Positions 10,011 through 11,249 of a stretch of DNA of 64,000 bases are shown piece after piece. Positions within the stretch are counted from its first letter, which is position 1, and every line of letters starts with the position of its first letter. Source of the stretch: Bacillota bacterium (GTDB lineage: Bacteria > Bacillota > UBA4882 > UBA8346); the NCBI GenBank assembly GCA_029776205.1, contig JAKOTQ010000061.1, positions 1-64,000 of the forward strand, read 5' to 3'. A program made the translations under genes and the position numbers. Under the pieces are notes generated by a model. The model saw nothing but the letters and a program-made list of their open reading frames with translations. It searched no databases and had not been told where the DNA came from.

Positions 10011-10360
10011 TGGTGGAGGCGGGGGGAGTCGAACCCCCGTCCGAAAAGGCATTAACCGAAGCATCTCCGGGTGCAGACTGCAATTTGAACTTCGCCTTCG
10101 GCTCGTCTACAGACGAACTAGCCGTCGGCTATCTCGATGATCTTAGCGCCAGTCTCCGAGAATTGACTGGCGAGCGCCCCGGTTTATTTGACGCCCGCCC
10201 CGACCTCCCGGGTTAAGTTCGGTTTGGACGGCCGCTTATATTAAGCAGCTAAAGCGTAATTGTTATTGGCACTTATTGTGCTTGCTGCAGTTTAACGAGG
10301 CCACAGCACCTCGACCCGCTTCTCCGATTAACACACTCCCCGTCGAAACCGGTCGCCCCC
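10011..10360 (-). ncRNA. ssrA: tmRNA (ssrA), tag ANNNYALAA
   Basis: A 350-nt transfer-messenger RNA for ribosome rescue. The 5' end GGGGGCG pairs with CGCCTCC before the encoded CCA, with one G-U. The T-arm GGTTCGACTCC is intact. The tag frame is at 10241-10270: GCC resume codon, then AAT AAC AAT TAC GCT TTA GCT GCT TAA, giving ANNNYALAA after the non-templated Ala, with the usual YALAA protease signal. UAAGU precedes the resume codon. A perfect TATAAT on the minus strand at 10443-10438 could drive a precursor about 70 nt longer. smpB, encoding its partner, lies upstream on the same strand. Confidence 0.95.
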
Positions 10361-10581
10361 GATTTGTTAAGGTAGTGTCGTTCAAGGATGAGGCATGAAG
10401 CTTGAATTCTCCCGTCAGCCATCTCCTCATCAATTTTATTATATGCGATCTTTCAATTTAATTAAATAGCAAGTTCTAGGCAATTAGTTTTTTCAAGATC
10501 CCGCGTGGTTTTCCTTTTGCTTGATAAACCGTTGTGGAAGATCTAGATCCGGCGCCTTCACAGCAGCGCACCAGATGACTC

Positions 10582-10752
10582 TTGCCGAAATGAACGAGCC
10601 AACTTCTTCGAATCAACTTGCGGCGTCAGAGGCAAGTCATGCAGGGAACGACCAAGCGAGAGACGGAACCGTACTAAAGTACGGTGAGTATCGCAGCGCG
10701 AAAGTGACGAGCAAAAAGCAGCTTATCACGCCGCACTCGCGAATTTCGGCAA
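10582..10752. other. Nested palindromic element, possible structured RNA
   Basis: Between smpB and ssrA lies a GC-richer block with successive nested complementary pairs. TTGCCGAAAT (10582-10591) pairs with 10743-10752, CGAG (10595-10598) with 10736-10739, GCGGCGT (10620-10626) with 10728-10734, GTCAT (10636-10640) with GTGAC (10704-10708), GCGA (10656-10659) with TCGC (10691-10694), and a terminal hairpin ACCGTAC/GTACGGT (10668-10685) closes a TAAA loop. All fold concentrically. It contains no credible gene and no terminator T run. It may be a mobile-type palindrome or a structured RNA. The rest of the 420-base gap is AT-rich and holds only the likely ssrA promoter. Confidence 0.6.
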
Positions 10753-10781
10753 AAAAAGAACAGCACTTGCAGAACAATAAC

Positions 10782-11249
10782 TTAACATCCACGTGCCCTG
10801 TCACGCATTGCGCGGTCGATCTCGCGGGCGGCATCACGTTTCGCAATATCCTCCCGCTTATCATACAACTTCTTCCCCTTGGCCAACGCCAATGTCACCT
10901 TAACCCGGCCCCGCTCATTAAAATACATCTCCAACGGCACCAAGGTCAATCCTTGTTCCCGCACTTTGCTGAAAAGCCGGAGAATTTCCCCTTTATGCAT
11001 CAACAGTTTCCGGGTCCGTAAAGGATCATGGTTGAAACGGTTACCGTAATCATAAGGGCTGATATGGCAGTTTTCCAGTAATACCTCATTGTTCCGGATA
11101 ATTGCAAAACTATCCTGAAGATTGCCTTTCCCGTTGCGAAGCGATTTCACTTCGGTTCCGGTGAGGACGATCCCCGCTTCAAAGGTTTCCTCAATAAAAT
11201 ATTCGTGCCTTGCCCGGCGATTGATTGTGATTGATTTCCGTTCAGCCAT
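10782..11249 (-). CDS. smpB: SsrA-binding protein SmpB
   Basis: A 155-residue OB-fold protein that binds tmRNA and delivers it to stalled ribosomes. Family features run the full length: [17 protein letters not shown] near the N-terminus, [35 protein letters not shown] and [19 protein letters not shown], then a basic C-terminal tail ([15 protein letters not shown]) that enters the empty mRNA channel. The ATG has a GAAGG-like site. It lies upstream of ssrA on the same strand, as in many Bacillota. Here the secG-rnr-smpB order is broken and acetate kinase is the upstream neighbour. Confidence 0.96.

Follow-up and report, generated by a model that had tools for sequence, protein, structure and literature searches.

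A palindromic block between smpB and ssrA of a Bacillota bacterium is very probably an old, decaying mobile element

In sum, our data point toward an insertion between smpB and ssrA in the window, i.e., the 64,000-nucleotide stretch of a Bacillota contig analyzed here. The palindromic block found at this place is very probably an old, decaying, nonautonomous mobile element of the MITE-like quasi-palindrome type. This reading rests on a dispersed family of copies, on paired changes in the two arms, on exact AT-rich duplications of 4 bp around near-identical copies of the related Bacillota genome G141, and on a site that is occupied in one genus and mostly lost in the sister species. We are highly confident that the block is a mobile repeat rather than an RNA of the locus, and moderately confident of the mechanism; the window copy itself is probably without conserved function now. 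In our model, the element would have inserted between smpB and ssrA in the ancestor of this genus, and the copies may have been moved by a transposase acting in trans.

Anatomy and spread of the element

The first-pass annotation had described a nested palindrome with outer arms of ten bases, inner arms and an ACCGTAC/GTACGGT-type apex, located along the transcript path from smpB to ssrA. All of these segments were found in place (Table 1): the outer ten bases of the arms (TTGCCGAAAT/ATTTCGGCAA) are perfectly complementary, the inner arms are of the TGCGGCGTCA type, and the block lies in the sense of both genes. The palindrome does occupy positions 10582 to 10752, but the unit is longer than had been annotated and includes an eroded 3' hairpin that had been missed. 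The full anatomy, as read from the aligned copies on the smpB/ssrA strand, is an outer stem TTTGCCGGATTG...CAATCCGGCAAGG, a second stem and the GTAC apex, followed by the 3' hairpin. The terminal inverted repeats of the window copy are near-perfect in its relatives, and the copies of G141 have TGTTCAAAAAGTCC ends. Folding of positions 10570 to 10765 gave a z-score of −2.78 for the plus strand (1 of 200 dinucleotide shuffles equally good) and of −2.83 for the minus strand (4 of 200), and thus both strands fold about equally well relative to shuffles.

Table 1. Coordinates of the element, its parts and the adjacent genes in the window
Feature	Position	Strand	Basis
Palindromic element of the dispersed family, complete copy	10544..10754	-	Family model R1, positions 1-216, E = 2.7e-39 in own genome; this copy is itself among the R1 training copies
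Conserved core common to several phyla	10620..10734	-	Model R2, 119 positions, E = 2.4e-17; this copy is itself in the R2 training set
5' outer arm (minus-strand reading)	10736..10752	-	Inverted pair, 82% complementary over 17 nt
3' outer arm	10582..10598	-	Partner of 10736..10752
Second stem, 5' arm	10721..10735	-	Inverted pair
Second stem, 3' arm	10619..10633	-	Partner of 10721..10735
Apex hairpin ACCGTACT/AGTACGGT, GTAC apex	10668..10685	-	Inverted pair; GTAC nearly invariant across the putative superfamily
Eroded 3' hairpin	about 10549..10572	-	CCCCGGCGCGCTGGGG...GCGCCGG in intact relatives
smpB, upstream gene, same sense as copy	10782..11249	-	
ssrA (tmRNA), downstream gene, same sense as copy	10011..10360	-	

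Identity to an Rfam family had been named as an outcome that would refute the candidate. At the gathering score, tmRNA was the sole family detected in the window and the palindromic block had no match; at ten loci bearing other copies, only rRNA, tRNA and FMN and SAM riboswitches were found, none of which overlaps a copy. A scan of the smpB-ssrA spacer for sigma-70 promoters gave zero matches. By eye, a TATAAT is present at positions 10438 to 10443 of the minus strand and is kept in the sister species.

The suggested search for copies in the own genome and in related ones revealed that the block is not unique. Within the own genome, contig C13 bears a second full copy with 69% identity, C35 bears a core copy, and C89 a fragment. 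Searches covering 61 and 41 related genomes added many further copies. The element is, therefore, dispersed, multicopy, short and noncoding. Of 29 class genomes, 24 were matched by a covariance model built from 29 copies (R1; E up to 0.001). Of 398 phylum genomes, 38 were positive (E up to 1e-5), 25 of which are not members of the class; the phylum scan scored about five candidates in each genome and therefore gives minimum copy numbers. The matches beyond the class mostly cover the core (R1 positions 21-138) and have different outer stems (e.g., GGCTGTTGAAAAGC or GATGTTCAAAAAGTCC).

A core-only model from 32 sequences (R2) was run on a mixed panel of 49 genomes, seven of which were positive: the own genome (4 places), G141 (15), a member of the Peptococcaceae (5), a member of the Desulfuromonadaceae (12), another deltaproteobacterial genome (5), Pseudomonas oryzihabitans (16) and Herbaspirillum (12). 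The other 42 panel genomes, including those of Polyangium and Streptomyces with 13 and 9.4 Mb, had no match. According to the tool itself, covariance-model E-values are rough; our case for the spread across phyla is built on the repeated presence of full-length copies in the positive genomes, together with the empty controls. A pattern scan of genome contigs found recognizable copies in Bacillota MAGs; its remaining matches had no convincing profile match (two at E values of 1e-4 to 1e-3). A Pseudomonas copy, used as the query, matched unannotated stretches of 14 plasmid records from Pseudomonas or Halomonas. No match came from four other plasmid searches or from one phage search, and another phage search gave one short match that we took as chance.

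Base pairing and orientation of the copies

Covariation between the arms is overwhelming. In the class alignment, 96.9% of the cells pair, and both sides have changed in 30 of 48 pairs, a number not reached in any of 500 shuffles; the wider core alignment has such changes in 20 of 25 pairs. Covariation had been put forward in the first-pass annotation as a test for RNA, and the paired changes are indeed very strong, but the G-U signature of an RNA is missing in comparison with tmRNA. The class alignment has 20 G-U (1.4%) and 14 A-C (1.0%) in 1382 cells, and the wider core alignment has 16 G-U and 15 A-C in 700 cells, whereas 24 tmRNAs from the same genome set, folded in the same way, have 314 G-U (15.2%) and 11 A-C (0.5%) in 2064 cells. 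G-U on one strand is A-C on the other, and therefore, a near balance of the two points to a constraint on the DNA. Counting against our explanation, G-U exceeds A-C if columns are counted (15 versus 6 in the class alignment), in the fold of the opposite strand (54 versus 14) and in the near-identical copies of G141 (41 in 2 columns versus 4 in 4 columns, of 688 cells). This excess is far below that of tmRNA in all sets but G141, whose set has little variation. We conclude that pairing is maintained mainly at the DNA level. Covariation is often considered sufficient proof that an RNA is functional, yet here it accompanies pairing that is mainly a property of DNA. A simple test that could clean RNA discovery pipelines is to compare G-U with A-C, taking tmRNA from the same genomes as the control. 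The complementarity of the arms may be restored in the DNA by template switching from arm to arm, or it may persist because the folded single strand would be needed for movement. Template switching is described as a cause of paired changes in the part of the literature cited (PMC8794818).

The orientation relative to genes was determined with a home-made gene caller trained on the loci, on which all counts rest; cruder callers gave a stronger bias (20 sense copies and no antisense copy in the first set from the class), and the counts of the trained caller were used. Of 46 class copies, 33 follow a codirectional gene in sense, 3 are antisense, 5 are convergent, none is divergent and 5 are located at contig edges; a few of the sites are orthologous, so that the counts are not all independent. 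Among the 13 copies of G141, 9 are sense, 2 antisense, 1 convergent, 0 divergent and 1 at an edge. The corresponding numbers are 9, 5, 3, 2 and 5 for 24 copies of other Bacillota, 7, 2, 5, 1 and 1 for 16 copies of P. oryzihabitans, and 4, 4, 1, 1 and 2 for 12 copies of the Desulfuromonadaceae; the 12 copies of Herbaspirillum comprise 5 sense, 1 antisense, 6 convergent and 0 divergent. In two genera (loci L034 and L035), copies precede the same GTPase gene, which by eye looks like hydF, in opposite orientations.

The sense bias in the class exceeds what would be expected from plain transposition and also counts against our explanation. Because of this strong bias, a role at the level of the transcript keeps some probability: the copies could be functional 3'-UTR or intercistronic RNA elements, borne by a repeat and kept since the folded sense transcript steers mRNA stability or termination, an effect on which has been reported for ERIC. 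Consistent with such a role, sense copies predominate in the class and in G141, and different phyla share the conserved unpaired motifs of the core. However, G-U is almost as scarce as A-C, in contrast to tmRNA, copies have been lost reciprocally between the two sister species (see below), the sense bias is weak or absent in the other Bacillota and in the Desulfuromonadaceae, and no terminator with a T-run was found at the 3' end of the element. We consider this alternative unlikely.

Target duplications, the mover and the history of the site

Transposition by staggered cuts leaves exact short target duplications. The thirteen full copies of G141 (90 to 100% identity) all have different flanks, and exact flanking 4-mers (TTTA, TTAA, TACT, ATAT, TATA) are present at 10 of them, compared to 2.3 after re-pairing of the flanks (0 of 20000 as high). 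Furthermore, 6 of 16 copies in P. oryzihabitans have exact 4-mers (CTAA, CTGA or CTTA; 20 of 20000 re-pairings as high), and the flanks of 12 Desulfuromonadaceae copies have a common-substring sum of 68 compared to 48.6 if re-paired (0 of 2000 as high). The Desulfuromonadaceae copies (L443-L453) have a 3' hairpin like that of the class version and are flanked by direct repeats of about 5 to 11 bp, which argues that the duplication length varies between branches. The window copy is of the class version, and no target duplication was detectable for this version (59 versus 61 re-paired in f1, n = 11; 93 versus 91 in f2, n = 17); therefore, transposition is shown for relatives and not for the subfamily of the window.

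A search for an autonomous partner in G141 by the end pattern found none; each of the 21 exact ends has a partner end, exact or with one mismatch, at the distance of one element length. By eye, no transposase-like cluster recurred among the genes beside the copies. The 12-mer TTTGCCGGATTG was tried as a marker of autonomous copies and rejected: 4 of 40 places are element copies by profile, and the rest is mostly ordinary-looking coding sequence.

The element is palindromic, extragenic and multicopy, as are REP/REPIN elements, which are mobilized by RAYT (Y1 HUH) transposases. Long inverted repeats take the place of REPs on either side of certain RAYT genes (PMC3733652). Mobilization of the element by a RAYT is, nevertheless, very unlikely, as the own genome has no RAYT gene, none of 18 RAYT loci has a copy nearby, and G141 has 4-bp duplications. 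Such duplications are not expected from HUH transposition.

The history of the site was followed at 28 smpB loci from 30 genomes searched (27 with a match), 24 of which have a complete tmRNA. The smpB-tmRNA spacer is 424 nt in the window and 18 to 187 nt, without a copy, at the other 23 of these 24 loci; among the smpB loci compared, the window site is occupied in one genus only. In the sister species of the same genus (G001), the first part of the element is present, followed by a deletion, and the contig ends inside the tmRNA. The C13 copy is intact in the own genome and reduced in the sister, and the C89 copy is reduced in the own genome and intact in the sister, with the counterparts judged from common neighbors or flanks. 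This reciprocal decay of three copies common to both species is the behavior expected of unselected DNA. A discrete, conserved noncoding RNA gene of the smpB-ssrA locus, suggested by the location between the two genes and by the stable fold, is rejected from this history as extremely improbable, as it is missing at 23 of 24 tmRNA-bearing smpB loci and mostly deleted in the sister, Rfam yields tmRNA alone and the copies sit at unrelated loci. Of the two possibilities raised in the first-pass annotation, a structured RNA or a mobile palindrome, the second is borne out by the dispersed copies, the duplications in a related genome and the one-genus site, and the first is not supported, given the missing G-U signature, the loss of most of the block in the sister and the 23 empty loci.

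Known repeats and the conserved core

Mobile palindromic repeats are already known as a kind, as far as the cited parts of the literature go (PMC2229807, PMC10969869, PMC2718517, PMC2267715, PMC3733652). MITEs and small bacterial repeats such as ERIC, Correia/NEMIS and RUP resemble the element in being 100 to 200 bp long, noncoding and intergenic, with a full-length stem-loop and target duplications (here in relatives); they differ in that our element combines an inner core conserved between phyla with differing ends, and no parent IS was found. YPAL, the Yersinia palindromic sequence (RU-2), is, like our element, intergenic and not A+T-rich; it has 167 to 168 bp, and duplications of varying length (3 to 26 bp) are given in the passages cited (PMC2229807, PMC2759123). 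By eye, the RU-2 sequence as printed there is without the GTAC apex and the core motif, unlike the element described here. The Pseudomonas intergenic repeats R0, R2 and R178 are likewise hairpin repeats (80 to 177 bp), and R0 and R2 carry ends of resident insertion sequences (PMC2718517, in the sections cited). The general catalogue of stem-loop sequence families lists such repeats species by species, and its cited part notes no cross-phylum core family, unlike what we see (PMC2267715). REP/REPIN and TIRYT are extragenic palindromes often found behind genes, as here, but the REP/REPIN units of 20 to 40 bp, with GTAG or CGTC tags and the GTAG type linked to tyrosine transposases, are several times shorter than the unit here (PMC3733652, in the passages cited). 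In the open-access literature, supplementary files aside, we found no description of a cross-phylum core family. A core conserved across phyla with exchanged ends, together with the strict sense bias in the class, looks new.

It is imaginable, although we offer this tentatively and as rather doubtful, that all copies form one ancient cross-phylum superfamily, in which the folded core (AAGC..CTGCGT..CTCnnCGTACnnnGTACG..CCTTG..GCTTCTGA) was kept and outer ends and duplication lengths were swapped between lineages. The core, and not the ends, would then be recognized by some factor, either as folded single-stranded DNA or as a transcript. If true, this would account for the insertion in the sense strand right behind genes and, in Pseudomonas, at stop codons. 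A core common to Bacillota, Desulfuromonadaceae and Pseudomonadota would unite scattered species-level repeat families as one mobile superfamily.

Twelve P. oryzihabitans copies are preceded by a sense gene; in 10 of these, the core starts 9 to 10 nt past the stop codon, so that the element seems to start at the stop codon itself. The duplications CTAA or CTGA at these loci (L423-L437) include the stop codon, so that the gene stays whole.

The copies also vary in architecture. A longer variant at five loci in genomes of the class (L044, L058, L151, L166 and L185) keeps both element ends and has an unrelated palindrome in place of the core, which starts with CTGGCGGGG..CTCC and ends with CCCCGCCAG as read in L044. 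The C35 locus of the own genome (G000:C35:49481-49708, L317) has two adjacent core copies, whose A/T-rich outer stems set them apart from the window copy. Extra 3'-hairpin modules are present at L004 (1764-1851) and L042 (1255-1311), repeated in tandem or a short way behind a full copy.
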